Source: Anaerolineae bacterium
GTDB taxonomy: Bacteria; Chloroflexota; Anaerolineae; Caldilineales; Caldilineaceae
Direction: 5' to 3'
DNA: 64,000 nucleotides
Assembly: GCA_030432295.1 (NCBI GenBank)
Contig: JAUIHI010000006.1
Coordinates: forward strand, 186,001 to 250,000
Under the pieces are notes generated by a model that was not told where the DNA came from, searched no databases, and saw nothing but the letters and a program-made list of their open reading frames with translations. How positions within the stretch are numbered: the first letter of the stretch is position 1; every line of letters begins with the position of its first letter. Below, piece after piece: positions 1,188 through 64,000 of the stretch. The position numbers and the translations under genes are program-made.

Positions 1188-1254
1188 CGAACGAATCGCC
1201 CAAAAAAGCAGGTTGCTGGCGCAGCTCCGCTTTCACTGAAATGGAGAATAAGCC

Positions 1255-1707: not shown

Positions 1708-1730
1708 ATTTAATTGGTGTGTTCATTTTG

Positions 1731-1776
1731 AGTTGGGCAGAGGAGCAGGCACGCCCACGCGCCTGCTCCTCCAACT
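1731..1776 (+). terminator. hairpin after SRPBCC-like gene, possible terminator
   Basis: A 10-bp perfect stem (1741-1750 with 1761-1770, AGGAGCAGGC) is extended by an outer AGTTGG/CCAACT pair at 1731-1736 and 1771-1776, with a small bulge. A short T-run (TTTT) follows three bases later. It could be a rho-independent terminator or one of the many intergenic palindromes of this genome. Confidence 0.45.
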
Positions 1777-1824
1777 GGTTTTGCATACACCCAAATTTGA
1801 GTTTCAAGCTTTCGGGACACTCCG

Positions 1825-2523
1825 ATGACACGCAATCAAACCATCAGTCTGGCGGCGGCGATTGGGATCGTCGCCGTTCTCGCGGGCTTCTTTTTTTTCA
1901 ACAATCGCACACCAACCGCAGCCCAATTGCCGGATCGGATGGCCGGGGCGCTGGAGGGGATGAAGACTGTCCAGGGCCGGGTGGATGTAACCCAAGGCAC
2001 TGTCACCCTGGAGCAGGAGTTCTGGTCCCAGCCGCCCACATTTATGCGGGCCGAAGTGGATAAAGGGCCGGCGGGCTTCCAGGGCACGATTGTTGTACTG
2101 GATGAGAAAGAGACGTGGGTCTACGTGCCCGCCTTGGGGCTGGTGACAGTGGCCGACCGGGAGAATACGCCGACGAACGACGCGGGACAGGTGGGCACAT
2201 CCTATCTGGAAACCCTGGCCGCTGATGTGGAGGCGGCCCTGCGCACCAGTACAGATGTACAGATTGTCGGCGAGGAACAGGCCGCGGGCCGTCCGGCATT
2301 GCGAGTGCAGCTTTTTGTGGACCCGACGGACACGCCCTTCGGCGCGGGCCAGTTGACCGTCTGGCTGGACAAGCGCTTCTACTATCCCCTGGCCGTGGAG
2401 GGGGACAACGGCTTCAGTCTGCGCTTTGAGTTTGCCCGCTTCAACCAGGAGATCGACCCGGCCACGTGGGTCTTTGTGCCGCCGCCGGGGGCTACTGTGC
2501 GCCGGGTGGGGGGGAGTCAGTGA
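1825..2523 (+). CDS. membrane-anchored LolA-like protein
   Basis: 232 residues. A hydrophobic segment at about residues 8-26 (AAAIGIVAVLAGFFFF) acts as an uncleaved signal anchor. The rest is exported and rich in beta strands: repeated short strands such as GRVDVTQGTVTLEQEFW and the late WVFVPPPGATV resemble the LolA/LppX/RseB fold, which binds lipids or lipoproteins. There is no lipobox. It stands alone between the SRPBCC-like gene and an MFS transporter. The start is the only ATG that keeps the anchor, although its ribosome site is weak. The ligand and role are unknown, and the fold assignment is an inference. Confidence 0.65.
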   Translation: MTRNQTISLAAAIGIVAVLAGFFFFNNRTPTAAQLPDRMAGALEGMKTVQGRVDVTQGTVTLEQEFWSQPPTFMRAEVDKGPAGFQGTIVVLDEKETWVYVPALGLVTVADRENTPTNDAGQVGTSYLETLAADVEAALRTSTDVQIVGEEQAAGRPALRVQLFVDPTDTPFGAGQLTVWLDKRFYYPLAVEGDNGFSLRFEFARFNQEIDPATWVFVPPPGATVRRVGGSQ

Positions 2524-2526
2524 GTA

Positions 2527-2601
2527 GTAACCAGTGAGCAGTAATCGGTAATCACCGGTCGAGCGGAAGTCCACTGGTGACTGATTACTGTTCACCGTTT
2601 A
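2527..2601. repeat. imperfect inverted repeat
   Basis: The arm 2527-2547 (GTAACCAGTGAGCAGTAATC...) pairs with 2581-2601 with a few transitions. It fills the gap between the LolA-like gene and the MFS gene. It is built of GTGA-CAGTAATC-type words and has no T-run, so it looks like a dispersed palindromic element rather than a terminator. Confidence 0.6.
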
Positions 2602-2632
2602 CTTCCCTTTACCCACTCCAACAGGACCCCCA

Positions 2633-3841
2633 ATGGCAAAGAAGACCCGTCGCTTTCAGATTTCTACTGTACCCCAACTGCTGGCCGCGTCGATTACGAC
2701 CCGGCTGGCAACCGATACCACCACCCAACTTTTTAACCCCTTTCTTGTCACAATCGCGGCGGGGCTGGGCCTGGATGTGCTGACAATGGGCCGTCTGGTC
2801 AGCCTGCGCAGTCTGATGGGGCTGGGATCGCCCCTCTTCGGCAGCGCGGCCGACCGCTTCGGCTACCGGCGGGTGATGCGCTTTGGCCTGCTCCTGGCCG
2901 CGCTGGGGATGTTCGCTATCGGCAGCGGCGGCGGGCTGGTCACAGTAGTCATTGGGATGATCCTCTCCGGTATCGGTCTCAGCGCATTCGTACCCACCCT
3001 GCAAGCCTATATGAGCGCGCGTCTGCCCTATCATCAGCGGGCACGGGGCATCGGTATTCTGGAATACGCCTGGGCGCTGGCCGGGATCGTCGGCCTCTTC
3101 GCTATGGGATTTCTCTTTGAAGGGGTGGGCTGGCAAGCGCCCTTTTTTGTGTTGGGCGCGTGGATTCTTGCTGGGTGGGGGCTGTTTGCCTTCTTCCCCT
3201 CGGCCCGCAGCGACGGATCGCCGACCCAAACTCCGACCACAACGCTCTTTTCCGGCGGGCTGCGCGGCTTTTTCGATCTCGGCCCCAACCGGCGTTCGGC
3301 CTATGCGGTGATCGTCTCGGCTGCGCTGCTCTTTTTCGCCCAGTTCCACGTCATCATCGCCCACGGTGCCTGGCTGGAAGCCGAATACGGCCTGGGGCCG
3401 GCCCTGCTCGGCTCGGTGGCTCTGGCCCAGGGGCTGGCGGATCTGTGCGGCAGTGTGCTGGTGTCGATTATTACGGACAAAGTGGGCAAGAAACGGTCCG
3501 TGCAGGCGGGGATGCTGGGCGCGCTGCTGGTCTTCATTGCCCTGCCTTTTGTCAATGTGGGGCTGTGGCCGGTCATCGCCAGTCTTGTGCTCCTGCGCTT
3601 CGCTTTCGAGTTCGGGATCGTCGCCAACATCTCCCTGGCCAGCGAGCAGGCCCCGGACCGGCGGGGAAAGGTGATGACATTGGCCGCGGCCTTCAATCTG
3701 TTGGGGGCGACGATTACCGGCTTCTCCGGTCCCTGGGCCTACACCACTTTCGGCGTCTGGGGGCTGGGACCGGTGGCGGCGGTCTGCACGGCAGTCGGGC
3801 TGGTCCTGCTCACCGTCTGGGGGCAGGAAGGCACGGAGTAA
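2633..3841 (+). CDS. MFS transporter
   Basis: 402 residues with about 12 hydrophobic segments, the usual length of the major facilitator family. The loop between helices 2 and 3 has GSAADRFGYRRVM, the classic G-x-x-x-D-R-x-G-R-R motif, and a second copy-like loop (DKVGKKRSVQ) follows helix 8. It sits in the cytoplasmic membrane. The substrate cannot be told from sequence, and neighbouring genes give no hint. An AGGA site lies six bases before the ATG. Confidence 0.88.
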   Translation: MAKKTRRFQISTVPQLLAASITTRLATDTTTQLFNPFLVTIAAGLGLDVLTMGRLVSLRSLMGLGSPLFGSAADRFGYRRVMRFGLLLAALGMFAIGSGGGLVTVVIGMILSGIGLSAFVPTLQAYMSARLPYHQRARGIGILEYAWALAGIVGLFAMGFLFEGVGWQAPFFVLGAWILAGWGLFAFFPSARSDGSPTQTPTTTLFSGGLRGFFDLGPNRRSAYAVIVSAALLFFAQFHVIIAHGAWLEAEYGLGPALLGSVALAQGLADLCGSVLVSIITDKVGKKRSVQAGMLGALLVFIALPFVNVGLWPVIASLVLLRFAFEFGIVANISLASEQAPDRRGKVMTLAAAFNLLGATITGFSGPWAYTTFGVWGLGPVAAVCTAVGLVLLTVWGQEGTE

Positions 3842-50693: not shown

Positions 50694-51419
50694 TCAAACA
50701 GAGCGTATCAATAGAAGCAACCCCAGCCCGGCCACAATTCCATAGAGCAGGCGGCTGAAGCGCTGGCCAGGGATGCGTCGGTTCATCCAATGGCCTGCCG
50801 CGACCGCGGCAACCATTGGGATCAGGCAAAAGATGAAAAGGACGAAGACCTGTCGATTCCACAGGCCACCCGCAGCGTGGCTGAGGCTGATGGCGAAGCC
50901 CGAAGGCAGAAAGAATCCCTGCAACGTAGCCCGGAAGCGGACCGGCGACCAGCGACGCAGCGCACCGTAAACCACCACCGGAGGCCCGTTTGTGTTGTAG
51001 GCTGCGCCCAGCGCCCCGGCCAATCCACCAAAAAGGTAGACCCAGCGGGCGTTGGGCAGTTTGGGCAGCACAGGCCGCAGCAACGCATAGAGACCAAAGG
51101 CGATCAGCAGCAGCCCCAGCCCGCCCGACACAAATTCTTCCGGGGCCACCCGGATCAGCCAAATCCCTGCCGGCATCCCCGCAAACGAAGCCAGCACCAG
51201 CCGCCAGGCATCTCCCAACTCCACATCCCGCCAGCTTCGCAGCAGAATCATCCCGGACATCGCCGCGGCCATCAGCCCTACCAGTGGGGTGGCGGTCTGA
51301 ATGCCGAGCAGAATTGTGAGCAGAGGCATAGCGATCAGCGCGTCGCCAAAGCCGACCGAGGAACGGGCAAAGGTGGAGAGAAAGGCGACGAGGAGGACGA
51401 GGGGGAGGGTTTGATTCAT
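50694..51419 (-). CDS. TauE/SafE family membrane permease
   Basis: 241 residues from the ATG at 51419; an in-frame GTG 15 codons earlier would overlap the preceding gene. It has eight or so hydrophobic segments, with the family opening FARSSVGFGDALIAMPLL and the repeat-like LGAAYNTNGPPVVVYGAL. The family exports sulfite, sulfoacetate or other sulfur-containing anions, though many members are uncharacterised. It is the last gene of the sulfotransferase-rich operon, 11 bases after the previous stop, which makes a sulfur link attractive. That link is an inference. Confidence 0.85.
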   Translation of the reverse strand: MNQTLPLVLLVAFLSTFARSSVGFGDALIAMPLLTILLGIQTATPLVGLMAAAMSGMILLRSWRDVELGDAWRLVLASFAGMPAGIWLIRVAPEEFVSGGLGLLLIAFGLYALLRPVLPKLPNARWVYLFGGLAGALGAAYNTNGPPVVVYGALRRWSPVRFRATLQGFFLPSGFAISLSHAAGGLWNRQVFVLFIFCLIPMVAAVAAGHWMNRRIPGQRFSRLLYGIVAGLGLLLLIRSV

Positions 51420-51430
51420 TGGGGGGCGGC

Positions 51431-52558
51431 CTACGATGTCCGCAACAGTTTGCGGACCGACCACCGCAGAAAACCGGACAGCGCAGGCGTGCCCGCGTGT
51501 AATTGGGTGTAGCCAATGAATCCTCCGGGTTTTTCACCCAAAACTCCAGCGGCGGCCTGGGCATGGTAACGCTGATAGAATTGCCAGGCGTGTCCGAACT
51601 GTCCAGGCAGGTGGGGTGGTCGGGCCAGGGCGCGAAAGAGTCTCTCTTCCACGCCGGAAACTGATATCTGGCCTAGCCGTTCCATCGACGCGTCTGGAGC
51701 CGTCCCAACAAAGAGACGGTTGAGATAGGCCAGGCTAGCGCGAACCGGCAATGCCACCCGGTGCTGCTGGGAAACTTGCACAAGTCGCTCCCAATCCACC
51801 CCATCCTTTCCATCCTCTGCCCGGCGCAGAAGCAGAACCATCTCGGCCAGTCTGTCGTAGCGGGGCAGCGGTGCCCAAGCGCAGGCAAGGGTGGCGAGAC
51901 GCGCGATCTGGTGCGCGGGCTGTAGCACCTGGACGGTGCGATCTGACACAGAAAGTGAACGAGTCTCTGTCCAAAAGGTCTCATCCCCACCATTCCCCTG
52001 CCAATCGCCGAGTGCACGCCAATGGAGCGTGACTGTGCGTCCCTGGGCGTTGGCAAAAGGCTGGGAAGGGCGAATCTGGCGGGCTGCTGGAGTCAATTGC
52101 TCCGGGGCGCGGCCCACGGGCTGCCAGCCCCGACGCGTCAGCAGAGCGATGGCGGTGGGTATCTGTTCGGGGCGAACGAGCAGGTCCGTATCAGCAGAGG
52201 GAAGTGGATGCTCCTCCACGGCAGTAGGTGGACTTTGCAGTAGTAGGGCAGGAATTCCGGCGTCTTGCAGGGCAGCTACAACCCCAGCCCCGACCTGTTG
52301 CTGCAACTGACCCTCGGTCCAGGCCCGGCGGTAGATGCCTTTGAGCCGATCCATCACTGGATCATCTGTGCCGTTTTGTTGAAGGGTCCGATAGACCAGA
52401 GGCAGCAGTCGGAAACTACCCACGTCCCACTGTTTCCGCTCAAAATTCACCCGGGCGTGCCATTCCGCCCAGGCAGCGATGGCCTCCGTGCCGGGTAGCA
52501 GGGCCGCGGCCAGGAGAAGTTCCTGTTCCGGGTGGGGGTAGAAGGGGGGGGGGGTCAT
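51431..52558 (-). CDS. NTP_transf_5-type nucleotidyltransferase family protein
   Basis: 375 residues. The central block LLQSPPTAVEEHPLPSADTD with LLVRPEQIPTAIALLTRRGW resembles the PF14907 family (nucleotidyltransferase-like, often found in polysaccharide clusters), where Asp residues in SADTDLL would bind metal. The usual KG before the first Asp is replaced by QS, so catalysis is uncertain. A short helical tail follows. Its ATG overlaps the stop of the GH130-like gene (ATGA). Confidence 0.6.
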   Translation of the reverse strand: MTPPPFYPHPEQELLLAAALLPGTEAIAAWAEWHARVNFERKQWDVGSFRLLPLVYRTLQQNGTDDPVMDRLKGIYRRAWTEGQLQQQVGAGVVAALQDAGIPALLLQSPPTAVEEHPLPSADTDLLVRPEQIPTAIALLTRRGWQPVGRAPEQLTPAARQIRPSQPFANAQGRTVTLHWRALGDWQGNGGDETFWTETRSLSVSDRTVQVLQPAHQIARLATLACAWAPLPRYDRLAEMVLLLRRAEDGKDGVDWERLVQVSQQHRVALPVRASLAYLNRLFVGTAPDASMERLGQISVSGVEERLFRALARPPHLPGQFGHAWQFYQRYHAQAAAGVLGEKPGGFIGYTQLHAGTPALSGFLRWSVRKLLRTS

Positions 52559-53625
52559 TGCTGGGCGTCGTCCGATGGCTTGTGCTGATTGGGCAAGTGT
52601 ATGGATGGCACAACGCGTAAACAGCAGCGCTCGTCGTGCAGGCCGTAGGAGACCAGCCAGTCGTTGTCGTGCCAGGGCACTGCGCCGCAGGGATAGACGA
52701 CCGACTCGGCTGTCGGGTTGATACGACGCCGGTGGGAGCGAGATGGCTCCGTCTCAGGCCGCAGCACCGGTTCGGTGGCGAGCCAAAGAGGTGCGAAAGG
52801 CGGCTTCGCTTCGAAGGCATAGACGCCTCCGTAATAACGCCGCTGATCCAATAGCCATTCGATGCGCCGCAACGCCGCTACCAGATAGCGGGGTAGACGC
52901 TGCACCAACTTCCCCGGCCAGAAAGGCAACAGGTGTCGCAGCGGCCCAACTTGGATGCGGGAATGAAAGAATGAGATGTAGACATCGCCCTGTCGAATTG
53001 GGGGCGCACCACCGCAGGACACGCCATAGCGGCTGGCATAGGGCGCTACATCCCAGGCTGTGGAATGCAGAGGCTGGCAGATCACCGGCCCGACACCGCT
53101 TAAGTCTACACGCAAGATAGTGTGTGGGTTAATCTGATAGACCGCATACAATTCGCCGTCGTGGGAAAAGAACATCCAATTCTTCTCAATTTCCTGGCGG
53201 GGTCCGTTTAGTTGGAGGGGGCGGGGCGGGGATTTGGCTTCCAAGCTGTCGGGATCAACTTCGACAATGGAAATCTGGTTGGGCCGAGTTGTGAAGTTGT
53301 TGTTGTAGTGGATGAAGATGCGATCTTGGTGGACCAAGAAGCGGGGATCATAGTGCCGGGAATCGCTATCAGGGATAGTGTCGGAGAAGGGCACGACTGA
53401 ACCGGGTATGACGTTCAGGTGTTCGTCCAGTTTGCACAGACCGATCCGACGTTGCATAGTTCGTCGGTAGCCGGAATCGACGCGATAGGCCATGAGCAGA
53501 CGACCACGGAAGCGGACGATGGCTGGGTTGTACACGCGGAAAGTCCGGAGCAGCACATAGTGCTGCCACTGGACAGGAAGAAGTGATTGCGGGTTGAATT
53601 CAATCGATAAAGCGGACATAGACAT
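52555..53625 (-). CDS. GH130-like five-bladed propeller protein
   Basis: 356 residues from the ATG at 53625 (AGG seven bases upstream); another ATG 12 codons earlier is possible. The blade HYDPRFLVHQDRIFIHYNN has the DPR motif of GH130 mannoside phosphorylases, and VYPCGAVPWHDNDWLVSYG is the typical last-blade GxV...Y-G pattern. GH130 enzymes phosphorolyse beta-mannosides. The presence in a biosynthetic operon suggests trimming or a structural role. It sits about 120-155 bases after sulfotransferase 3, the largest gap in the chain. Confidence 0.68.
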   Translation of the reverse strand: MSMSALSIEFNPQSLLPVQWQHYVLLRTFRVYNPAIVRFRGRLLMAYRVDSGYRRTMQRRIGLCKLDEHLNVIPGSVVPFSDTIPDSDSRHYDPRFLVHQDRIFIHYNNNFTTRPNQISIVEVDPDSLEAKSPPRPLQLNGPRQEIEKNWMFFSHDGELYAVYQINPHTILRVDLSGVGPVICQPLHSTAWDVAPYASRYGVSCGGAPPIRQGDVYISFFHSRIQVGPLRHLLPFWPGKLVQRLPRYLVAALRRIEWLLDQRRYYGGVYAFEAKPPFAPLWLATEPVLRPETEPSRSHRRRINPTAESVVYPCGAVPWHDNDWLVSYGLHDERCCLRVVPSIHLPNQHKPSDDAQQ

Positions 53626-53781
53626 CGCCAACCTGCCGACCCCCGATAGCTCGATAGGCATCGAGCTTAGGCATGACTTTACTTAGTGGCACCCAGTGCG
53701 GAAGCGACCATTTCATCGTGTCTGCCACCGAGAAAAACGATTGGCCGGAGTAGTGCCTTGATAGTTTGTCTCATAGATGCC

Positions 53782-54531
53782 TCACAACTGCCCCACCGAT
53801 ATAGTTTGCAGGCGTTCTTCCACGGCGTCGCAACCCAACATCCAACAGAACCGTTGAATCCAGCGAGGCGCCGGGTGTAATAAGTCGGAAACAAAGAGAT
53901 GTTCCATTGAGACTGGGATCAAGGGAAAGCCAAAATCGGTGATGAGTCTATTGCAAATAGCCTGACTCGTGCCGGGGAGTTGCGCCGACGCAATGACTAA
54001 CGTTTCGTCAGGAAAACGTGCCTGGTAGGTACAGATCAATCCGTTGTAGGCTCGCCAAAGACGGACAGCGCTGACAGGATCAATGAGCAAATGCCGTCGG
54101 CGCTGTTTAAGTCCGCGGGTTAACAGGGATGTCACCACTTCAGCGCAGGGACGCCAGATTAGAATGGCTTTCAGCTCGGGAATTATCGCTCTCCATGCAG
54201 GCAAGAAGAGGGTTGTCCGCGGATCTTTCCAGCCCCAGTCTGGATAGCAGGCAGTCCGCTCAGCAACCAACTGCCGGGCACACACGCGTTCTTCCGGCGA
54301 GAATAACTGGAATTTCCGGGGTCGCAGCTTCCAGCCAGCAGTTGTGGTCCTTTTTCGTCGGATATGCCTGGCGTGTAGCCGTACAAAGTCGAGGTCTTCG
54401 TAATAGCCGTGTGGATTGGAGATGTCCGGTTCGATGCTTCCGGCCTTCGCCATTGGTAGTCCGGATTCGGCCAGCCAGCGGGCAACCAAAGACGTGCCAG
54501 AGCGATGCATGCCCGCCACGCAACAGATCAT
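53782..54531 (-). CDS. sulfotransferase-like P-loop protein (third)
   Basis: 249 residues. GMHRSGTSLVARWL near the start is the phosphate-binding loop of sulfotransferases, with ESGLPMAKAG and later GWKDPRTTLFLP (a 3'-phosphate region containing Lys-Asp-Pro-Arg) and IWRPCAEVVTSLL. It resembles the Sulfotransfer_3/Stf-like group found in exopolysaccharide clusters, using PAPS to sulfate a sugar hydroxyl. It is coupled to GT2 by a four-base overlap. The 31-codon frame just after it (53678-53770) is not called. Confidence 0.8.
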   Translation of the reverse strand: MICCVAGMHRSGTSLVARWLAESGLPMAKAGSIEPDISNPHGYYEDLDFVRLHARHIRRKRTTTAGWKLRPRKFQLFSPEERVCARQLVAERTACYPDWGWKDPRTTLFLPAWRAIIPELKAILIWRPCAEVVTSLLTRGLKQRRRHLLIDPVSAVRLWRAYNGLICTYQARFPDETLVIASAQLPGTSQAICNRLITDFGFPLIPVSMEHLFVSDLLHPAPRWIQRFCWMLGCDAVEERLQTISVGQL

Positions 54532-55469
54532 GACTGCCTCCGACAGCGTGGCGGCAGAGGCGTCATCAGCAATTGCCGTCCATGCTGCTGCAAGCGGGCG
54601 CGTGCCTGAGTTGGCGTCAGCAGAAAGCTAACCAGCCAGAAGATGCTACCGGCCATCGAATACGCCAAACGCAGGCCCCATGCGGCAAGCCGTCCCCAGT
54701 ATTTTTCGGTGTAACGATACCGTGATTGCAGAAGATGTTGACCAATCATTCCGTTCAACAAAGCGCTCCTATCCGGTGTGCTTGCGCCACCTATATGGGT
54801 GACGACTGCATCCGGAACGAGCATGGCCTGCCAGCCAACTCGCTGCGCCCGCCAGCAGAGGTCACCATCCTCGCAATACATAAAGAACCTCTCATCCAAC
54901 CCGTTCAGTTCCTCGAACAATTCTCGCCGCACCAGCATGGCCGCACCAGTGATGGCCTCAACCAATTGGGGTTTGTCGGCGGCAATATTCCACGTGTCGT
55001 GGCGCAGCATCCATCCTCGTACGCTGCGAAGCGGTCCAGCGCCGACACCAAACCAGAAAAAGCTCCAGGGCGTCTCGAAGCCAAAACAGTTGTGGCGAAT
55101 GCGGCCAGTAGCATCCAGAATACGCGGTGCGCAGATGCCCACATTCGGGTGAGTGTCCAGGAAGCCCACCAACCGATCAATGGCGGCATCATTGATGACT
55201 GTATCGGGGTTGAGCAGGTATAAATAACGCCCTTCAGCCAACCGACTGGCCTGATTGATGGCAACAGCAAAGCCGGTGTTCTCTCTGTTTGCCAGCAAGC
55301 ATATGGATGGCAAAGCGGACACTTGCTCTAGGGTCTCATCACTCGATGCATTGTCCACAAGAATAATCTTGCAGGCTGTGTCAGTGTGGCGTGCAAGAGA
55401 ATCTAGACATGCGCTGATCTGGGCGGCGCTGTTGTGGGTGACAATCAGGATAGAGATATCGGGTTGCAT
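54528..55469 (-). CDS. GT2 glycosyltransferase (WbbL/rhamnosyltransferase-like)
   Basis: 313 residues. ISILIVTHNSAAQISACLDS is the GT-A opening; LVDNASSD and YLLNPDTVIND give the metal-binding D-x-D equivalent (NPDT). GAAMLVRRELFEELNGLDE and YCEDGDLCWRA fit rhamnosyl- or similar transferases. It ends with a hydrophobic segment (AGSIFWLVSFLLT) that could attach it to the membrane. It adds a sugar to a lipid- or glycan-linked acceptor. Five bases follow the previous stop, and four are shared with the next gene. Confidence 0.88.
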   Translation of the reverse strand: MQPDISILIVTHNSAAQISACLDSLARHTDTACKIILVDNASSDETLEQVSALPSICLLANRENTGFAVAINQASRLAEGRYLYLLNPDTVINDAAIDRLVGFLDTHPNVGICAPRILDATGRIRHNCFGFETPWSFFWFGVGAGPLRSVRGWMLRHDTWNIAADKPQLVEAITGAAMLVRRELFEELNGLDERFFMYCEDGDLCWRAQRVGWQAMLVPDAVVTHIGGASTPDRSALLNGMIGQHLLQSRYRYTEKYWGRLAAWGLRLAYSMAGSIFWLVSFLLTPTQARARLQQHGRQLLMTPLPPRCRRQS

Positions 55470-55474
55470 AAGGG

Positions 55475-56203
55475 TTAAGTGGAAATTACCTGATCAGCTA
55501 ATGGGCTGCGATGAAAGACATCGACAAGTTCTGCATAATTGCTAACAAATTCACGGTACGGTTGACGCCAGGTACGATGTACAGGCGAATCTGCACAAAT
55601 GCGGCCTATTTCCAGGAAATCACATATCTGATCAAGCGTAGATTGCCAGACCAGATTCTCCTGCAAATGGTTCTCATAGATAATTCCCAGATGGGGAATG
55701 GCCTGCATGATAGCTTCACAGCGAATCTCCTGGTCATAGACAAACGACGCAATTTGCATAAATTCATCTGGGTCAATGGTCACTGAAAGCGTTTCACCGC
55801 GACTTTGGCCAATGCTGATCCAATGAGCAGTCGTTTTTCCGACCATCGCAGATAGGGAACGAGCGAACACGGAACGCCGCCGAATATAGATGATCCGCCA
55901 GCCTTTATCCTGCAATGCCAACAGCAACCGCTCTGGTTCTGCCACATGGCGCTCAAACAGCTTAAAACCATAGACAGGACGCCGTGTCCGCAGTTTTATA
56001 TAGAACTTGCGCGTGGCAATATAGGGGAGCGGGTTAACTCGCCATAATTTGTAGAGGCGCTGAGACCGTGTTGGACGCGACCAAAAAGTTGGGTTGAACA
56101 ACTCGCCATCGCAGTGAATGGCCGGGTGGGCGTTTAGCAGGCTTTTCAGTAATGTGCTGCCTGTGCGCGCCGTCCCAAACAGAACGAAGGGCCTCGTGTT
56201 CAC
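55475..56203 (-). CDS. sulfotransferase (second)
   Basis: 242 residues from a GTG at 56203, one base after the methyltransferase stop; an ATG at 56236 would overlap that gene by 32 bases. The PAPS 5' loop is FGTARTGSTLLKSLL, and IYIRRRSVFARSLS is the likely 3'-phosphate region. LNAHPAIHCDGELF resembles the Stf0-type carbohydrate sulfotransferases. Its sequence differs from the sulfotransferases at 53782 and 57070, so the three are not recent copies. Confidence 0.85.
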   Translation of the reverse strand: MNTRPFVLFGTARTGSTLLKSLLNAHPAIHCDGELFNPTFWSRPTRSQRLYKLWRVNPLPYIATRKFYIKLRTRRPVYGFKLFERHVAEPERLLLALQDKGWRIIYIRRRSVFARSLSAMVGKTTAHWISIGQSRGETLSVTIDPDEFMQIASFVYDQEIRCEAIMQAIPHLGIIYENHLQENLVWQSTLDQICDFLEIGRICADSPVHRTWRQPYREFVSNYAELVDVFHRSPLADQVIST

Positions 56204-56204
56204 T

Positions 56205-57059
56205 TTACGGACGTTTCTTTCCAAAAGGCAAATCATGCGAGCCGCGAATCTGAGAGACCAAATTTAATGGTTGGGTTTGATGTTTTTCTATCACCAGTGC
56301 ATAGGGATAAAAGTGGATGGAATGTACTGTCTTTTGAAACTGTGTTGTAGCAGATTGCCCTTTGACGGCATGTATATGATTTAACTGATGAATCAGCCCT
56401 GCCGCATAGGCTGCAAATTTATTGTGGATGCCATGAATGTCTTCGCAGATATACACCCCACCGGGCTGGAGGTGTGGCAACATTTCCTCAAGGGTTGTAA
56501 TCTGTTGATCGGGTCGATGGCCGCCATCATCTATCAGGATGTCAACTTCGCTTACCTGTTCTTTGAAGGCAGACCAAAACTGACGATCTTGCTGGTCGCC
56601 TATGAAAATCGACACATTGTCTCGCTCGTGTTTCTTACATTCTGGTTCGATATCGATGCCATAAACATGGCATCGGTCGCCAAAATAGGCAGTCCACATA
56701 TCCAGACTACCTCCGCCGAATACGCCAACTTCCACAACATGAGCCGGTTGTCCGACAAAGCGACTCAAGTGGCGATGATAGAGATCGAAATAGTGCTCCC
56801 ATTTCCAAATTAGGTTCCCCTGGCTGTGATTGATGAAATAATCCCACAATGGATTAGCGGTCTGCACCTGTACCGAATCTTGCTGAACAACGGGCAAACT
56901 ATTTTTCCAGGAAGGCGTGAAGCTCAAGCCACAACACACCAGCGGTAAATTTCTTAAGATATGGCGTGCATACCCTGGATTTTGCCGATATGCGGTAAGC
57001 ATTTCACGTACAGCAGCAAATCGAATCAGCCAGCGACCAACTCTTCGTTTTTTCACCAT
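56205..57059 (-). CDS. MycE-type sugar O-methyltransferase
   Basis: 284 residues. VVEVGVFGGGSLDMW binds SAM, and VDILIDDGGHRPDQQ is the acidic DDGGH block of metal-dependent macrolide-sugar O-methyltransferases such as MycE (and of CmcI-like proteins). It probably methylates a sugar hydroxyl. GGAGG sits two bases before the ATG and five before the next codon (GTG), so translation may start one residue later. It follows the sulfotransferase at 57070 by ten bases. Confidence 0.83.
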   Translation of the reverse strand: MVKKRRVGRWLIRFAAVREMLTAYRQNPGYARHILRNLPLVCCGLSFTPSWKNSLPVVQQDSVQVQTANPLWDYFINHSQGNLIWKWEHYFDLYHRHLSRFVGQPAHVVEVGVFGGGSLDMWTAYFGDRCHVYGIDIEPECKKHERDNVSIFIGDQQDRQFWSAFKEQVSEVDILIDDGGHRPDQQITTLEEMLPHLQPGGVYICEDIHGIHNKFAAYAAGLIHQLNHIHAVKGQSATTQFQKTVHSIHFYPYALVIEKHQTQPLNLVSQIRGSHDLPFGKKRP

Positions 57060-57069
57060 TGCCTCCGGG

Positions 57070-57966
57070 TCATTCTACCAACCAATGAGTCAAGTCGCGT
57101 CCGATCAAGTCTTGCAAGCGCAAGATATCGTCGCGCTGGGGAAGTGTTAGTGCCTTACGCACTTGTGGGTTCAATGTTGGAACTGGTGTCTGATTCCAGT
57201 TGCGCAAAAACTGGGCAGCCTTCTTGCGCATTGGTTGGGGGGCGATAAGTTTGATCAACGGCTTTAATCGCATATTATGCGTCAATAGTCGTACAATAAG
57301 GGAACTGCGTGTGCCAGCACCTCGGTTGTAAACTATAGATACATTTGGCACAAACTCACTATCTACATCCAGAAAAACATACAATGTCTGCATGAAAGTA
57401 GCCGGGTTGGTTAGAAGGTCGTCATACAAACCAATATAAATCTGGTCTTGTGAAAACCGCGTCAACCAATCCTGAATTCTCGAGACATACCAGCCAGCAT
57501 CAAGATAATGCGGTAAGCGCGTTTCAAAACGTTGTTTCCATCGCCGAGTTGAATCACTGTATGCAGTGACAAAGTCCTTCTCTGGTTCATTACCTCTCAA
57601 TCGCTGCATCAAGAATGCCGAATAGCTCCGATCAACCGGCTGGCGTAAGATACAGATGAACTTGCCATCCGGGAGATAGTGTTGAATGCGCTGGCAAGAG
57701 CGGGCTTCGATGTTGCTAGTCGACGCTTCTCCGATTGCCCTTTGCCTATCAACATCCTGGAACAGGGCTTGATAATCTGCTGACGTTTGTATGGCCCAGT
57801 GGCGGCCCGGGAAATTCAAAGGCGTTTGTTCTGCTTCACCAAACTCAAAGAAATCCGGCTCCTTCACAGAACTCATGAAAATTTGTGGATGCTGCGCCAG
57901 ATAGGCGTAGACTGACGTGGTGCCAGATTTGGCAACACCGATGAGGAGGAAATTTGGCATAGTCAT
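57070..57966 (-). CDS. sulfotransferase (first, heparan-type fold)
   Basis: 298 residues from the ATG at 57966 (GGAG nine bases upstream). IGVAKSGTTSVYAYL is the PAPS 5'-phosphosulfate loop and ILRQPVDRSYSAFLMQR the 3'-phosphate region; KEPDFF between them is family-typical. This is the best match to the Sulfotransfer_1 type of glycan-modifying enzymes. It uses PAPS as donor. The acceptor is presumably the glycan made by the operon. Confidence 0.9.
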   Translation of the reverse strand: MTMPNFLLIGVAKSGTTSVYAYLAQHPQIFMSSVKEPDFFEFGEAEQTPLNFPGRHWAIQTSADYQALFQDVDRQRAIGEASTSNIEARSCQRIQHYLPDGKFICILRQPVDRSYSAFLMQRLRGNEPEKDFVTAYSDSTRRWKQRFETRLPHYLDAGWYVSRIQDWLTRFSQDQIYIGLYDDLLTNPATFMQTLYVFLDVDSEFVPNVSIVYNRGAGTRSSLIVRLLTHNMRLKPLIKLIAPQPMRKKAAQFLRNWNQTPVPTLNPQVRKALTLPQRDDILRLQDLIGRDLTHWLVE

Positions 57967-57987
57967 AAAGGCGAACTCCACAGCACT

Positions 57988-58755
57988 TCAATCTGTCTGT
58001 CCTGCTCCCTCACGGGCAACAATCACCAGCTCACCCTGATGCCACTCGTCTTCGAAATTCTGAGTGGCGTTATAGAAATTTAGCGAGCACCCCCGCCGGA
58101 AACAGTCATGCAATTCGATAACGATCACACTTACCATATTGATCCAGGCAGAGGGGGCAGCAAACACTTCCACTTCAGCGCCCTCTATGTCGATTTTCAA
58201 TAAATCGATCATGGTCAATCCGTTTGTAGACAATAGGTCAACTACGGTCATGGTGGGCGTATGTTCCAGCACAACTGCCTCTGGGTCATTCCCACCCCAG
58301 ATTTGGAACGTTCCATGACGTGCCAGTGGATTAACAATGGCAATCTGGTCCAATCTGTCCCACAAAGCCGCCCGAATCGGTGTAATCTGAGGATAAGCAG
58401 TCACATTTTTACACAGCTGGCTGAAGTTTGCACTGGCTGGCTCCAGAGCCAGAATACGCGCATCCGGATACTGGTTGGCATAGTAGAGGCTGGTCAGCCC
58501 AATATTAGCCCCAGCGTCCACGATGACCCGTAATGGTCGCTCCAATGGCAACGCGTAGGCCATGCGCATAAATATCTCGTCACAGAAGCCAACGTCTGAT
58601 GTCCCCAAGCGCAGATAAATCGGCGAACGGCACTCCGGAACGGTCACGGCAACTTCGCCGCGGCGGCCCAGTATCTCGGCGTAGATAAAGTAGAATAGAC
58701 CACGCCAACCAAAGACGCGCTGGTAGCGACGCAACCAAGCCCGTTTCCTTCTCAT
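57988..58755 (-). CDS. FkbM family methyltransferase
   Basis: 255 residues. VDAGANIGLTSLYYA binds SAM, ILALEPASANF follows, and LLKIDIEGAEVEVF is the FkbM signature (DIEGAE). Such enzymes O-methylate sugars or polyketides. The ATG overlaps the GT4 stop (ATGA). With the MycE-type enzyme it gives the operon two different O-methylation steps. Confidence 0.9.
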   Translation of the reverse strand: MRRKRAWLRRYQRVFGWRGLFYFIYAEILGRRGEVAVTVPECRSPIYLRLGTSDVGFCDEIFMRMAYALPLERPLRVIVDAGANIGLTSLYYANQYPDARILALEPASANFSQLCKNVTAYPQITPIRAALWDRLDQIAIVNPLARHGTFQIWGGNDPEAVVLEHTPTMTVVDLLSTNGLTMIDLLKIDIEGAEVEVFAAPSAWINMVSVIVIELHDCFRRGCSLNFYNATQNFEDEWHQGELVIVAREGAGQTD

Positions 58756-59978
58756 CGCGTCCTTCTTCTCAAGGTTGCCAGACCTCGACGGGAGCGGATG
58801 AACAGAGAAAGCAGGGGGGCAGGCAAAAAGTCATGAAAACTGAATGGAGACTCTCTGCTGAGCAAGCGGACGTGCCTGCTGGATTGAGCCAGGGAATAAC
58901 GGCCTGCTGCAAGTTGCTCCAGCAGGTCAAGATAACGCTGTCCCATGACCTCTATAGAGAAAAAGGTCCGGGCACGCTTCATGGAAGCAGAGCTGCACGC
59001 CTGCCATATCTGTTCATCTGCGGCCAAGTCGGCCACGCACCGGGCGAAGTCTTCCGCATCGTCTACTGTAGCTAGAAAACCGCTAACTCCATCCTCGATG
59101 GCTGCGTCCATGATGCCAGGCAGACGAGAAAGCACCGGCACACACCCATTTGCCTGCGCTTCCAGGCTAACCAATGGTAGTCCCTCAAAGTGGGATGGCA
59201 ACAGCAACACATGGTGGTCCCGCATGGCCTGATAAACCGTCTGGATTGACTGGGTGCCGGATAGTTCAACATGCGCCTCCATACCGTGGGCCGCAATTGC
59301 TTGTTCAAGCGCCAATCGGTCTTCGCCGTCACCGATAATGGTCAACCGCGTCGCTACGTTTTGTCGCTGTAAAATGGCAAGAATTGTAGGTAACAGGAAA
59401 ATGCCTTTATGATTTTGAGATAAATTACCTACAAAGAGCAGCCTTAGCGGTTGTTCCCAGGGGCGACGAGAGATCAAGGTATTTACCGACGGTGTCTCGA
59501 TACCATACGGAATCTCCACAATGTTCTTTTTCGGCATGGCTCTGGCAGAAGCAGAGCGAACCTTGGGGCTGACCGCAACGGCCACGTGCCAGACCCGCTG
59601 ATTCAAAGATGCGTGGCGGTAGATTCTCTCTAAATCGTTATGCAGGACGGGCACGGCGAAAACATCGTCTGGCAGGCGATGCAAGCTCAACTGGGCCGGA
59701 CGTACACCCAAGCCATTATTCAAAAAAATGACGTCGTATTTTTCTTTGGTGAAATAGTCGGCCAGGCGCAGCGCAAGTCCGGCGGTGCTTGTCCAGACTC
59801 CGGGAGCGATCAACTTGCTCCGCAGGCCGACCACCCTGATCTGAGGCCACCATTCTCCTGTGTCGCAAGCAACCACAGTCACGTCGTGCCCTGCATCCCG
59901 GAGGTAGCAACCCAGATTTAATACATAGGTTGTGACGCCGCCAACCCACATGCCACCGACAAAAAGGGCAATCTTCAT
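58752..59978 (-). CDS. GT4 family glycosyltransferase
   Basis: 408 residues with the GT-B two-domain layout: FVGGMWVGGVTTYVLNLG opens the acceptor domain, LRLLFVGNLSQNHKGI the donor domain, and LPSHFEGLPLVSLEAQANG is the E-x7-E donor-binding block. It transfers a sugar from a nucleotide donor. Its ATG overlaps the stop of the FAAL-ACP-acyltransferase gene, so glycosylation and acyl activation are coupled at translation. Confidence 0.9.
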   Translation of the reverse strand: MKIALFVGGMWVGGVTTYVLNLGCYLRDAGHDVTVVACDTGEWWPQIRVVGLRSKLIAPGVWTSTAGLALRLADYFTKEKYDVIFLNNGLGVRPAQLSLHRLPDDVFAVPVLHNDLERIYRHASLNQRVWHVAVAVSPKVRSASARAMPKKNIVEIPYGIETPSVNTLISRRPWEQPLRLLFVGNLSQNHKGIFLLPTILAILQRQNVATRLTIIGDGEDRLALEQAIAAHGMEAHVELSGTQSIQTVYQAMRDHHVLLLPSHFEGLPLVSLEAQANGCVPVLSRLPGIMDAAIEDGVSGFLATVDDAEDFARCVADLAADEQIWQACSSASMKRARTFFSIEVMGQRYLDLLEQLAAGRYSLAQSSRHVRLLSRESPFSFHDFLPAPLLSLFIRSRRGLATLRRRTR

Positions 59979-62900
59979 GAGGTCACGCCGTTTGTAATCG
60001 CTGGTCTTTGGAGATGCCGTTGAATCGTCCCTGCCAGCAGCGATTCAGGATGTCTTCGCCAACTTGACTCCAGAAAGTCCGCATAGCAATCAATCATCTG
60101 CCGTACATAGTCCGCCTGATCGTTGAACGCCCCCGCAGCTGGGAAAGCGGGCCCAAACACAGTACGGATATGACCATCGGGCTGGCAGAATGCAAAGCAG
60201 GGGAGAATCACTGCCTCTGTGGACCAGGCTATCTCCGCAAAGGTCGGCTTGAATTCGTATTTCCTGCCTGCAATTTGGCAGGGCACGACGCCTTCTGGGG
60301 TGTATCCAAAGTCATTGGCAATTGCCACGACACCACCGGCGCGCAAAGTGTGATATCCAAGGATCATACGTTCAGCTGTCGCCGCTTGCAATTCCAAAGC
60401 AATTGGTGCGTCAGTTTCTTGCGACATCTGAACTGCCTTCCGTCCTCCGTATTGAACCAAGTGGATTATAGGTCCTCGTTCGACTAGGCTTTCGATGACG
60501 GCACTGGCAAATGGTAGCCCTGGTGAATGGTATGTGACGAGGAGCACGCCTTTCCCACGATCTAGCGCGGTCTCCAGATGATTCCAACCCGTGAATGAAA
60601 AAGCAGACTCGGTTTTCTCTATGTCTTCATCTTCCATAATGCGCCATAGCTGTTGCCAAAAAATCTGAACCGAATTTGTCAACACATCTGCAGTGTCGGC
60701 GGTCGGTCCCGATCGACTAAGTCGCCGCCACTGTCGCATCAGCATGTTCCCCACCAAGTAGGCTCGCTGGCCATCTTCCGACAGCGCCGTCTGTTTGCCC
60801 AGCGATGCCTGCATTTGGTTGAGCAATGATAGCTCGGTCCGATACAGGCCGGATTTCACCGCCAGTCGACTCCAGATATTCAGGCGGCTGCGAACCTGAT
60901 CATAGCTGCCAGAGAAGGCAACGTTTTCTAGAATCCGTTGCGCCCGCCCAACTAGGCGTCTTCGGGAAAGGCGGGCTCGCCACGAATTTCGCAGGCGGGT
61001 CTTGGGCTTGGGGATGTCTGAGCTTGCAAGCGAAACAACCTGTTTCTCTGACCTTATCATTGACGCGCTGATAACAGCATTCGGCAGTGCTTCGTCGCCG
61101 TCTAGCAACCGTACCAAATGACTTGTCGTCGGTGCCTGGAAAAATTCTATTGGCACGCGACGATCGTAGGCATCCTCCACAGCCAAGACCATCCGCAGCG
61201 CCGTCAGCGAATCGCCACCTAACTCAAAGAAATCGTCATCCGGTCGCACCGTCTCCAAGCCCAACATCTCGGCAAACAGGGTGGTCAGTGCCTGCTCCAG
61301 TAGGGCCGGTTTGTCGCGGGCCACTCGTAGCAAAGCCTCACCAGAAGAGTCTGGACGATAGCCGGAAGCCAGATATTTTTCTCGCGTGGCAGAACGTGCT
61401 ACCTTGCCACTGGTCGTTATTGCCAGCCACCCGCGCCGCACCAGGCGGATATCGGCTAGCAGGACATTCGATCCTTTATACACCTGGTGGCGAATTGCCT
61501 CTAACACGTGTGCCTCTTGATCATCAGCTAGCCTGCCACGCACTTCGCATACCAACACAGGCAGTTCAGTACCCAAAGCTGCACTATACACACCAAAAGC
61601 TGCTGCCCGCCCTCCTAAATCACCGGCAACGGCCAGGGCAATCTGCTCTAGTGATTCGGGATAGATATGCTTGCCGGCCGAAATGATCAGATCTTTTTTG
61701 CGATCTACTACGAATAGTTCGCCGTCGGCCAGATAGCCAAGGTCCCCAGTACGTAGATTTCCGGCCTTTAGTGTTTGAGCTGTTAAGTCATTTTGATGAA
61801 TATAGTGATCAAAAAGTGTTGGAGAATCGATGACAACTTCACCGAGATGTCGGTCCGGAACAGGTATTCCTACCTCATCACAGATCGTGATCATTACGCC
61901 AGGCGGAGGTGTGCCACAACTGATTACAGCGAGTGAATGTTCATCTGTGCTGCGAATGGCGAGACGCTTATCAAGCAGAATTTGTCTGTCAATGGAGTCA
62001 ATACGCGGCAGGGTATCTTGGCCCGTTAGGGATCCCATAAAAACACATTCTGTCATTCCATAACCAACTTGAACCGCTTCAGGGGTCAAGCCTATTTCGC
62101 GAAATCTCAAGGTAAAGGCTTCCAACACATCTGGACGAATCACTTCAGCACCCGCGATGAACAGGCGCATGGACCTCAGGTCCAATCCAGTTATATCACG
62201 TTGGCGGATATAACGCGTAGAGTGATTGAAGCCGAATCCTGGCATAAATGCAATTGTGCCGCAGTAGTCATGGATGGCCCGCAACAAGACGAGAGGTCGC
62301 CGCACCCAGTAGTCCGGGGGAATCGTTACGACAGGTACGCCGGTGACCAGGGGCAGCAGCAGATAGACGACCAAACCCAGATCATGATAAAACGGCGCCC
62401 AGCCGACAAACACATCTTTTTCGCTGAGTTTGAATAGGCCAACCAGCATTTGCAAGTGACGCAGAGCGTTCGCATGGGTTACGACAGCACCCTTGGGCAA
62501 GCCGGTGGTGCCACTGCTAAACTGGACATAGGCGGGGGCGGTCGCCTCTGGGGTGAAGATTGAACGACTTGAATACTGGTTTGGGGTATCAGGCGTCAAG
62601 AGGGTCTTGATATCGAACACCGTGCACGGCAACTCAGCGACCTGTTCTGTCATTGCAGTATTTAGGTCAGGCAAAGCAATTATGGCTTTCGCATGGCTGA
62701 CCTTCACGATATCACGTAATCGCTTTTGGTGGCGTACCGTCTGCTTGAAGGCAGAGGAATAGGGCGCAATTGTAGGTGTGGCTCCAACATAGAGGGTAGC
62801 AACAAGTGCCGCGATCAGCCACGGCTCGTGTTCACCGGCCAACACGACGACATCCCCCGGCCCAATTCCTGCACTTGCCATTCTACACGCGATTACCAGT

Positions 62901-63040
62901 GAATCAGCATGCAACTGGCCAAACGTTAACGATTCCGGGGCGCCGCCTGCACCCAGAAAAGTCATGATCGCTGCGTCTGGTTGTGCTGTGGTGCGTGCAA
63001 TAATTGCCTGAGTGATCGTGGAAGCGTTATTTAGGATCAT
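59975..63040 (-). CDS. FAAL-ACP-acyltransferase fusion (fatty acyl-AMP ligase, carrier, LpxL/LABLAT-like)
   Basis: 1021 residues from the ATG at 63040; an ATG at 63091 is possible but overlaps the upstream gene by 65 bases. Domain 1 (1-560): adenylate-forming ligase with FSSGTTGLPKG (174-184), GYGMTE (326-331), TGDLGYLADG (432-441) and catalytic Lys546 in TTSGKVAR, fatty-acyl-AMP-ligase-like. Domain 2 (about 570-645): acyl carrier, FFELGGDSL with Ser611 for phosphopantetheine. Domain 3 (about 680-1021): LpxL/LABLAT-like acyltransferase; the catalytic-site region is YHSPGLPF with His838, but residue 843 is Pro where family members have Asp or Glu. It likely activates a fatty acid, loads it on its own carrier and passes it to a glycan or lipid. 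Confidence 0.85.
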   Translation of the reverse strand: MILNNASTITQAIIARTTAQPDAAIMTFLGAGGAPESLTFGQLHADSLVIACRMASAGIGPGDVVVLAGEHEPWLIAALVATLYVGATPTIAPYSSAFKQTVRHQKRLRDIVKVSHAKAIIALPDLNTAMTEQVAELPCTVFDIKTLLTPDTPNQYSSRSIFTPEATAPAYVQFSSGTTGLPKGAVVTHANALRHLQMLVGLFKLSEKDVFVGWAPFYHDLGLVVYLLLPLVTGVPVVTIPPDYWVRRPLVLLRAIHDYCGTIAFMPGFGFNHSTRYIRQRDITGLDLRSMRLFIAGAEVIRPDVLEAFTLRFREIGLTPEAVQVGYGMTECVFMGSLTGQDTLPRIDSIDRQILLDKRLAIRSTDEHSLAVISCGTPPPGVMITICDEVGIPVPDRHLGEVVIDSPTLFDHYIHQNDLTAQTLKAGNLRTGDLGYLADGELFVVDRKKDLIISAGKHIYPESLEQIALAVAGDLGGRAAAFGVYSAALGTELPVLVCEVRGRLADDQEAHVLEAIRHQVYKGSNVLLADIRLVRRGWLAITTSGKVARSATREKYLASGYRPDSSGEALLRVARDKPALLEQALTTLFAEMLGLETVRPDDDFFELGGDSLTALRMVLAVEDAYDRRVPIEFFQAPTTSHLVRLLDGDEALPNAVISASMIRSEKQVVSLASSDIPKPKTRLRNSWRARLSRRRLVGRAQRILENVAFSGSYDQVRSRLNIWSRLAVKSGLYRTELSLLNQMQASLGKQTALSEDGQRAYLVGNMLMRQWRRLSRSGPTADTADVLTNSVQIFWQQLWRIMEDEDIEKTESAFSFTGWNHLETALDRGKGVLLVTYHSPGLPFASAVIESLVERGPIIHLVQYGGRKAVQMSQETDAPIALELQAATAERMILGYHTLRAGGVVAIANDFGYTPEGVVPCQIAGRKYEFKPTFAEIAWSTEAVILPCFAFCQPDGHIRTVFGPAFPAAGAFNDQADYVRQMIDCYADFLESSWRRHPESLLAGTIQRHLQRPAITNGVTS

Positions 63041-64000
63041 CTGAAGATACCATGTTGGTGACGGCGGCCCGATCAATTTTACGCATGGCATTCAACGGGA
63101 TATTCTCCACAAAAATCGCCCGCCGCGGCACTTGATGTGGTGGCAATTGTTCTCGGCAGTGATTCAGAATGGCCCGTTGTTCAACATTGGCTCCCTCAAT
63201 TACTGCTACCAGTTCCTCCAATCCATTCCGGGTAACACCAGTCACCACACAGCAGTTTCGCACGCCCGGAAAATCTATGATCGTATTTTCTGTAAGTACT
63301 GGATATACCGAGAATCCACCGATCTTCAGTATTTGTTTCTTGCGGCCAACAAAGCGTAGCGCCGGGCCATCATATGCGAATAAATCGCCGGTTTTGAACC
63401 AGCCAGCCTCGAAGTATTGCTCGTTCAACACTGGGTCGCCAAGATAACCTCGCGTAATAGGGGTGCCCTGAAGAAGTAATTCGCCATCCTCAGCGAGCTT
63501 CATTTGGTAATCGCCGCACATTTCCGAAAAAACGATCCTCTTTCCTGATGATAGCTTAGATAGGTGTCGCATCACTGGAGAAAGACATTCGGTGCTGCCA
63601 TACATATGCAAAAAGCATTCAGCGCCACGTGCAAGTAGCTCATCAGCCATAGACTCAGATACAGGTGATGCTCCCGACCCAACAAACTTGAGACAAGATA
63701 AATCAAGCATCGGCCAATTACTACTAACTTTCAACATCGAGATCATGGTAGGCAACAGAAACGTATGGGTTGGCTTGTAATGTGATATGTCCTTTGCAAA
63801 GCTGTACGGTGAAAAGGGCAAAAGGAAGTTCGAACTGCCAGAAAGCAACATGGGAAGTCCAATAAAGAGCAGTCCGCCAACGGTGAAAGGTGGCGCATAG
63901 TTGATAAAGATCGATGTGTGATCTAGTTCAAAGACCTGTATCGTATTCGATGCGGCTGCTCTGATGGCGGCCATATGCACGGGAACACCCTTGGGCATCC
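63027..64000 (-). CDS. acyl-AMP ligase / acyl-CoA synthetase, C-terminal part (cut by window edge)
   Basis: At least 324 codons are visible; the 5' part lies beyond the right edge. The window starts inside the P-loop (PKGV). Other ANL-family blocks follow: MYGSTECLSP, WFKTGDLFAYD, GRKKQILKIGGF and AMRKIDR, whose Lys is catalytic. The nearest types are acyl-CoA/AMP synthetases; whether it loads CoA or a carrier cannot be told. Its end overlaps the start of the FAAL fusion. The base composition is visibly AT-richer than most of the window. Confidence 0.87.
   Translation of the reverse strand, partial: MPKGVPVHMAAIRAAASNTIQVFELDHTSIFINYAPPFTVGGLLFIGLPMLLSGSSNFLLPFSPYSFAKDISHYKPTHTFLLPTMISMLKVSSNWPMLDLSCLKFVGSGASPVSESMADELLARGAECFLHMYGSTECLSPVMRHLSKLSSGKRIVFSEMCGDYQMKLAEDGELLLQGTPITRGYLGDPVLNEQYFEAGWFKTGDLFAYDGPALRFVGRKKQILKIGGFSVYPVLTENTIIDFPGVRNCCVVTGVTRNGLEELVAVIEGANVEQRAILNHCREQLPPHQVPRRAIFVENIPLNAMRKIDRAAVTNMVSSDDPK

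Follow-up and report, generated by a model that had tools for sequence, protein, structure and literature searches.

A mobile gene cluster of distant Chloroflexota that probably directs an acylated, O-methylated and multiply sulfated oligosaccharide or glycolipid

What is made by an operon in which acyl-activating enzymes, glycosyltransferases, O-methyltransferases and sulfotransferases are encoded side by side? The question is raised by the minus strand of positions 50694-64000 of a 64,000-nucleotide stretch of DNA (the window; GenBank assembly GCA_030432295.1, contig JAUIHI010000006.1) from an Anaerolineae bacterium of the Caldilineaceae, corresponding to C47:186001-250000 of a genome of 6.7 Mb in 61 contigs. 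The cluster to which these genes belong is real, mobile and conserved. We consider it likely that the window holds the downstream half of a horizontally acquired cluster of some twenty genes, and that the product of this cluster, destined for export to the cell surface, is an oligosaccharide or glycolipid bearing acyl, O-methyl and multiple sulfate groups.

Twelve tightly packed genes (Table 1) were found on this strand, each where an earlier reading made from the DNA letters (the sequence-only reading) had placed it, and Pfam returned every family name which that reading had given to them; the GH130-like protein (E 5.7e-5) and the sulfotransferase encoded at 53782 (26.0 bits) fell just under the gathering scores. 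In the order of transcription the junctions measure -65 bases (AAL to FAAL1), -4 (FAAL1 to GT4), -4 (GT4 to FkbM), +6 (FkbM to ST_A), +10 (ST_A to the MycE/TylE-type methyltransferase gene), -32 (the latter to ST_B), +5 (ST_B to GT2), -4 (GT2 to ST_C), +120 (ST_C to the GH130-like gene), -4 (the latter to NTP_transf_5) and -34 (NTP_transf_5 to TauE). The 4-base ATGA overlaps thus number exactly four and the sole larger gap is the one of 120 bases at 53.7 kb, as had been claimed, with all other junctions between -65 and +10. A scan of the window against Rfam gave no match.

The cluster occurs in varied forms in four other genomes of the phylum: UR.bin201, which is a Chloroflexi metagenome-assembled genome (MAG), and G601, G634 and G640, which belong to a single genus of a family outside the class of the window. 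In UR.bin201 a PqqD gene and an NMT1-type ATP-binding cassette (ABC) importer set precede fusion 2 (a second gene of the FAAL1 type), AAL and fusion 1 (the FAAL1 orthologue); sulfotransferases, GT4, ST_B, GT2s, an HPr-kinase-like (HprK-like) gene, further GT2s and NTP_transf_5 follow. Its AAL is 52% identical to that of the window, with gene order kept, its FAAL1 orthologue 44-46% and its ST_B relative 34%. Contig C104 of G601 carries ST_A (twice), ST_B, GT2, ST_C and the GH130-like gene in the order of the window (57, 59, 64, 54 and 50% identity, respectively) and stops there. The versions in G634 and G640 are large and rearranged. That of G634 exceeds 45 kb and includes HprK-like, ABC, epimerase, FkbM, GT4, GT2, GH130-like and NTP_transf_5 genes with many sulfotransferases, its fusion 1 carrying an interrupting stop; that of G640 is spread over four contigs with two fusions, GH130-like genes, sulfotransferases, an asparagine (Asn) synthase and a pyruvyl transferase-like gene. 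The sequence-only reading had been prepared to give up a single pathway if homologues of its genes were never found together elsewhere; they co-occur in all four genomes.

The clusters of UR.bin201, G634 and G640 also have in common a Pfam-less protein family (L037:18344-19621, L072:16444-17505 and, in L070/L071, 22061-23122 of G640:C18), which lies directly between the GH130-like and ST_B genes in two of the three; neither the window nor the part of contig C35 that was read was seen to contain it.

The distribution and composition of the genes were then considered together. Members of the GH130-like family were found in 4 of 400 sampled Chloroflexota genomes, each time beside sulfotransferases and GT2 and only in genomes already named here as carrying the cluster; AAL (E<=1e-60) was found in its own genome alone out of 396 in the class, congeners in the sample lacking it. 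The G+C content of the cluster core is 0.46-0.58, against 0.61 for the remainder of the window, with NTP_transf_5 and TauE host-like at 0.62. Because of this drop and of the rarity of both genes, the sequence data point to horizontal acquisition of the core. The host-like composition of NTP_transf_5 and TauE, unlike that of the other genes, and the shuffling of gene order between genomes would also suit unrelated operons that are merely adjacent, their sulfotransferases serving different pathways. We regard this as highly improbable in view of the ATGA coupling, of two independent co-linear parallels in distant genomes (UR.bin201 and G601) and of the GH130-like and AAL genes, which are very seldom seen in the phylum or class and never apart from the others.

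That the genes would continue past the right edge had been expected from the sequence, and they were found at the end of C47 and on contig C35. C47 ends 832 bases past the window, inside an ISAzo13-family transposase gene; these bases complete AAL and then run through what is left of an ABC exporter gene into the initial 162 bases of an insertion sequence (IS) with the transposase start (L002:2671-2832). C35 opens with the last 508 bases (L023:1-508) of the same kind of IS (ISAzo13-family transposase, PF07592), which is represented in this genome by three right ends and two left ends. Because the 3-base target duplications match (TAA on C47 and TAA on C35), the two contigs very probably adjoin each other across a single IS copy, positioned just after fusion 2. 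Independent confirmation of the join comes from UR.bin201, where fusion 2, AAL and fusion 1 follow one another as here with no IS between them. Of the other flanking triplets, TTG on C61 pairs with TTG on C21, making a join of these contigs via a second IS copy likely, and C29 (TCA) is unpaired. The first ABC exporter gene of C35 matches an intact G634 gene (71% identity over 421 residues) and has its N-terminal part in another frame and about 100 codons gone; on these grounds it is classed as a pseudogene in this strain. A second copy at the end of C47 (L002:2502-2636), before the CoA-type ligase gene, is a remnant with 58% identity over 55 residues. Two broken copies, before fusion 2 and before AAL, suggest that an ABC-ligase unit was once duplicated in tandem and then decayed. 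The Na/H antiporter gene at the far end of the C35 genes is probably unrelated to the cluster.

Table 1 Genes of the cluster region in the window and on contig C35, each listed in the order of the text (C35 genes in contig order)
Gene	Product	Position	Strand	Pfam family; relatives
Window
AAL	CoA-ligase-like adenylate-forming enzyme, 460 aa, complete open reading frame	63027..64000 in the window (C-terminal part only); full span 63027-64409 in window coordinates, same contig	minus	PF00501 + PF13193
FAAL1	fatty acyl-AMP ligase - acyl carrier - PatA/LpxL-type acyltransferase fusion, 1038 aa	59975..63091	minus	PF00501, PF00550, PF03279
GT4	glycosyltransferase	58752..59978	minus	PF00534/PF13439; 41% identical relative in G634
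FkbM	FkbM-type O-methyltransferase	57988..58755	minus	PF05050; 55% identical relative in G634
ST_A	heparan N-sulfotransferase-like protein	57070..57981	minus	PF00685/PF13469
MycE/TylE-type	sugar O-methyltransferase (Methyltransf_24)	56205..57059	minus	PF13578
ST_B	sulfotransferase	55475..56236	minus	PF13469
GT2	glycosyltransferase	54528..55469	minus	PF00535; 63-64% identical in G601, G634, G640
ST_C	sulfotransferase	53782..54531	minus	PF13469, just below cut-off
GH130-like	five-bladed-propeller protein	52555..53661	minus	PF04041, weak
NTP_transf_5	nucleotidyltransferase-like protein	51431..52558	minus	PF14907
TauE	TauE/SafE permease	50694..51464	minus	PF01925
C35
Fusion 2	FAAL-carrier-PF03279 fusion	520-3342	minus	PF03279
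ABC	ABC exporter gene (first)	L023:3372-4906	minus	
GT2	GT2		minus	
Methyltransf_24	Methyltransf_24 protein		minus	
GT2	GT2		minus	
HprK-like	HPr-kinase-like protein		minus	
PqqD	PqqD		minus	
ABC	intact MsbA-like ABC exporter		minus	
Na/H	Na/H antiporter		minus	

The acylation of the product is suggested by the two fusions and AAL. The adenylation domain of FAAL1 found its best matches in the Protein Data Bank (PDB) among fatty acyl-AMP ligases (FAALs) or FAAL-like loading domains (3pbk, 3kxw, McyG, FadD23/28/32), a CoA ligase turning up only at E 2e-21. It is accordingly classed, by sequence, as FAAL-like with a carrier domain in cis, and is predicted to load that carrier. The C-terminal domain scored above the gathering score of PF03279, with PatA as best profile match (E 3e-5); in a fold search with a model of pLDDT (predicted local distance difference test) 60, PatA structures took ranks 1-12 and LpxM structures ranks 13-14. 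An invariant Asp lies one residue from the position of the second catalytic (acid) residue of PatA. The acyltransferase His is present in three of four aligned sequences (FAAL1, fusion 1 of UR.bin201 and a Caldilineaceae fusion), with the acid not at +5. The edge gene AAL had been called an acyl-AMP ligase from the sequence, an assignment we do not retain: its best PDB matches are fatty-acyl-CoA and feruloyl-CoA synthetases, not FAALs.

Other occurrences of FAALs were set aside. The 66 genomes matched in the phylum search have mostly stand-alone FAALs or loading domains of polyketide synthases (PKS) and non-ribosomal peptide synthetases, not a FAAL-carrier-acyltransferase fusion, and the other FAAL of the same genome, on contig C6, has no cluster genes around it. 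A plasmid search with FAAL1 gave no record covering 80% of the protein, its best Chloroflexota match, a Leptolinea plasmid, having a FAAL without the cluster. The fusion 2 of G640 (L070:12181-15678) was observed to have an additional N-terminal methyltransferase domain.

Sulfation is predicted from three proteins. ST_A has the 5'-phosphosulfate-binding (5'-PSB) motif GVAKSGTTS and the 3'-PSB motif RQPVDRSYS, and matched in the PDB the bacterial sulfotransferase 3rnl (E 3e-38) and heparan sulfate NDST (E 2e-12). ST_B has GTARTGST and RRRSVFARSLS, and ST_C the 5'-PSB-like GMHRSGTS. All three thus carry the PSB motifs expected of sulfotransferases dependent on 3'-phosphoadenosine 5'-phosphosulfate (PAPS), the 3' motif of ST_C being less clear. 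The capacity to make PAPS is provided in this genome by a chromosomal CysN-CysC; in G634 and G640 a PAPS synthetase (ATP sulfurylase-adenosine phosphosulfate kinase) directly adjoins the cluster, in G640 following NTP_transf_5. A further sulfotransferase region of the same genome, on contig C29, has no cluster genes around it. NMT1/SsuABC-like importer genes were also noted directly upstream of fusion 2 in UR.bin201 (L037:3350-6005) and G640 (L070:7804-12165), where they may take up an organosulfur compound to be used as a source of sulfate.

The MycE/TylE-type protein matched MycE (E 4e-16) and demethylmacrocin O-methyltransferase (E 2e-15) in the PDB. The GH130-like protein, at 22.6 bits, lies under the GH130 profile cut-off of 26; a profile built from four of its relatives had beta-1,2-mannobiose phosphorylase as best PDB match, at E 0.006 only, and a single-sequence structure model (pLDDT 36) was unusable. 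From these sequence comparisons it is probably a mannoside phosphorylase-like enzyme or a transferase. NCBIfam holds no family for it or for NTP_transf_5, relatives of which sit at the end of the cluster in UR.bin201, G634 and G640. TauE had been counted as part of the pathway in the sequence-only reading. It overlaps its neighbour NTP_transf_5, its G+C content (0.626) is host-like, and none of the genes in the other clusters is related to it; although co-directional, it probably lies outside the conserved set. Its non-conservation and composition likewise led us to reject a role in supplying or removing sulfite for the pathway.

Starting from what was directly observed, namely the gene identities, their co-conservation with the fusion 2, PqqD and HPr-kinase-like genes, the IS junction, the PAPS capacity and the resemblance to PatA, we infer a sugar acceptor, an order of steps, a product, acylation by both fusions from their own carriers, action of the three sulfotransferases on that acceptor, and export. 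In the proposed pathway a saccharide would first be assembled on a membrane acceptor by the GT2 and GT4 enzymes, its hydroxyls would be methylated by the FkbM and MycE-type enzymes, and ST_A, ST_B and ST_C would add sulfate from PAPS made by CysN-CysC. Each FAAL domain would then turn a free fatty acid into acyl-AMP and load its own carrier domain, from which the PatA-like domain would pass the acyl group to a sugar hydroxyl, and the CoA-ligase-like enzyme could provide acyl or aryl groups of a second type. The product would finally be moved by an ABC exporter; with the dedicated gene broken, this task would fall to the intact MsbA-like one. This retains the single pathway for an acylated, methylated, sulfated saccharide put forward from the sequence, for which co-occurrence elsewhere and the enzyme resemblances now speak; the lipid linkage that had been part of it would follow from the acyltransferase only.

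Several observations weigh against such a pathway. UR.bin201 shares the ligase end with the window and G601 the sulfotransferase end, and no single genome has both. The acyltransferase domain of FAAL1 is without the HX4(D/E) motif of LpxL, although it has the invariant Asp beside the acid position of PatA. With one exporter gene frameshifted, its second copy a remnant and the cluster split by an IS, the pathway may be partly silent in this strain. Nor was a lipid-carrier enzyme seen, and neither the annotated genes of the window and C35 nor the scanned genes of UR.bin201, G634 and G640 (not every gene of which was scanned) include a Wzx, a Wzy, a polysaccharide copolymerase (PCP) or a priming transferase. 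The last result bears equally on a sulfated exopolysaccharide or capsular polysaccharide with acyl groups as minor decorations, the chloroflexotal counterpart of cyanobacterial synechan. Several glycosyltransferases together with sulfotransferases, the polysaccharide pyruvyl transferase-type and epimerase genes of G634 and G640, and the location of cyanobacterial sulfotransferase genes in polysaccharide clusters (PMC8205485) would agree with such a product; two FAAL-acyltransferase fusions and a CoA ligase would be unusual for an exopolysaccharide locus, and we find this product rather unlikely.

PqqD, HprK-like and NTP_transf_5, which recur with the cluster in UR.bin201, G634 and G640, are left unexplained by a pure glycolipid. 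They would find a role in a modified ribosomal peptide: PqqD would bind the precursor, the HPr-kinase-like protein would phosphorylate a serine, and NTP_transf_5 and the glycosyltransferases would add sugars before sulfo-, methyl- and acyl-decoration to a sulfated lipoglycopeptide. In lasso peptide biosynthesis serine is phosphorylated by an HPr-type kinase and hexoses are attached by a nucleotidyltransferase, in clusters that can also include sulfotransferase genes (PMC8498205); B2, NTP, sulfotransferases, PqqD, Asn synthase and GT are listed with adjacent gene numbers in another report (PMC10040529), and an Asn synthase gene lies within the G640 cluster. No Asn synthase is present in the cluster on C47 and C35, however, and no lasso B2 protease lies in or near the clusters, the single PF13471 gene per genome (four genomes) being on another contig, with unrelated surroundings in both cases read. 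PqqD and the HprK-like protein also score far below the curated NCBIfam cut-offs, and no precursor gene was noticed, without a systematic search for one. We judge such a peptide quite unlikely, yet a rival to be taken seriously. Distinctly unlikely, in our estimate, is a surface compound that joins both ideas, a ribosomal peptide picked by PqqD, phosphorylated by the HPr-type kinase and bearing an oligosaccharide with methyl, fatty acyl and multiple sulfate groups, its genes forming a mobile, modular cluster shared by distant Chloroflexota; if true, this peptide-borne sulfated oligosaccharide would be a new class of bacterial surface compound.

The preferred reading, an acylated and multiply sulfated oligosaccharide or glycolipid, would add a phylum to the makers of sulfated glycans, with three sulfotransferases, FAAL-carrier-PatA fusions and, in relatives, a PAPS synthetase of the cluster's own. 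It would also imply, if true, a new route of glycan acylation by direct transfer from a carrier domain loaded by the FAAL of the same chain. The relatives with larger, less damaged clusters allow the pathway to be tested. Bacterial sulfated glycans have seldom been documented. According to the 2021 report on synechan, no sulfated polysaccharide had been reported in bacteria beyond cyanobacteria, sulfated lipo-oligosaccharides being known from rhizobia and mycobacteria (PMC8205485), and neither of the two Chloroflexi MAGs covered by a survey of mat MAGs was found to have a sulfotransferase (PMC9723792). In the open-licence literature, subscription journals lying outside the scope of the search, we found no description of a cluster of FAAL and sulfotransferase genes in Chloroflexi or of such a pathway.

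PatA itself, the phosphatidylinositol mannoside acyltransferase, has a sugar hydroxyl as acceptor and is a separate enzyme with an acyl-CoA donor, whereas the FAAL1 domain that it best matches in profile and fold sits behind an acyl carrier domain. The acyl chain of the mycobacterial sulfolipid SL-1 is made by a PKS; no PKS was seen in the present cluster, which unlike SL-1 has several glycosyltransferases and three sulfotransferases. SL-1 and the acyltrehaloses resemble the proposed product in that the FAAL FadD23, the sulfotransferase Stf0 and PapA acyltransferases yield a sulfated acylated sugar, but there the Pap enzymes esterify trehalose 2-sulfate (PMC4183827), and here a PatA/LpxL-like domain is fused to FAAL and carrier. 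The xss cluster for synechan in Synechocystis is likewise a bacterial glycosyltransferase-sulfotransferase cluster for a sulfated glycan; it has Wzx, Wzy, PCP and a priming glycosyltransferase, with no acyl-activating enzymes in its description (PMC8205485), whereas the present cluster has three acyl-activating enzymes, two of them fused to acyltransferases, and no Wzx/Wzy seen. With the lasso tailoring set of HPr-type kinase, nucleotidyltransferase and PqqD-like B1 (PMC8498205) it shares PqqD, HprK-like and NTP_transf_5, but not the B2 protease (PF13471) or, in the cluster on C47 and C35, the Asn-synthase cyclase. A FAAL fused to a lysophospholipid acyltransferase in bacteria is mentioned in one sentence of an earlier paper, with no cluster or function given there (PMC8460268); the present fusion is of the same domain kind and is tied to sulfotransferases and glycosyltransferases. 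No one of SL-1, synechan and this fusion combines the parts that are brought together in the present cluster.

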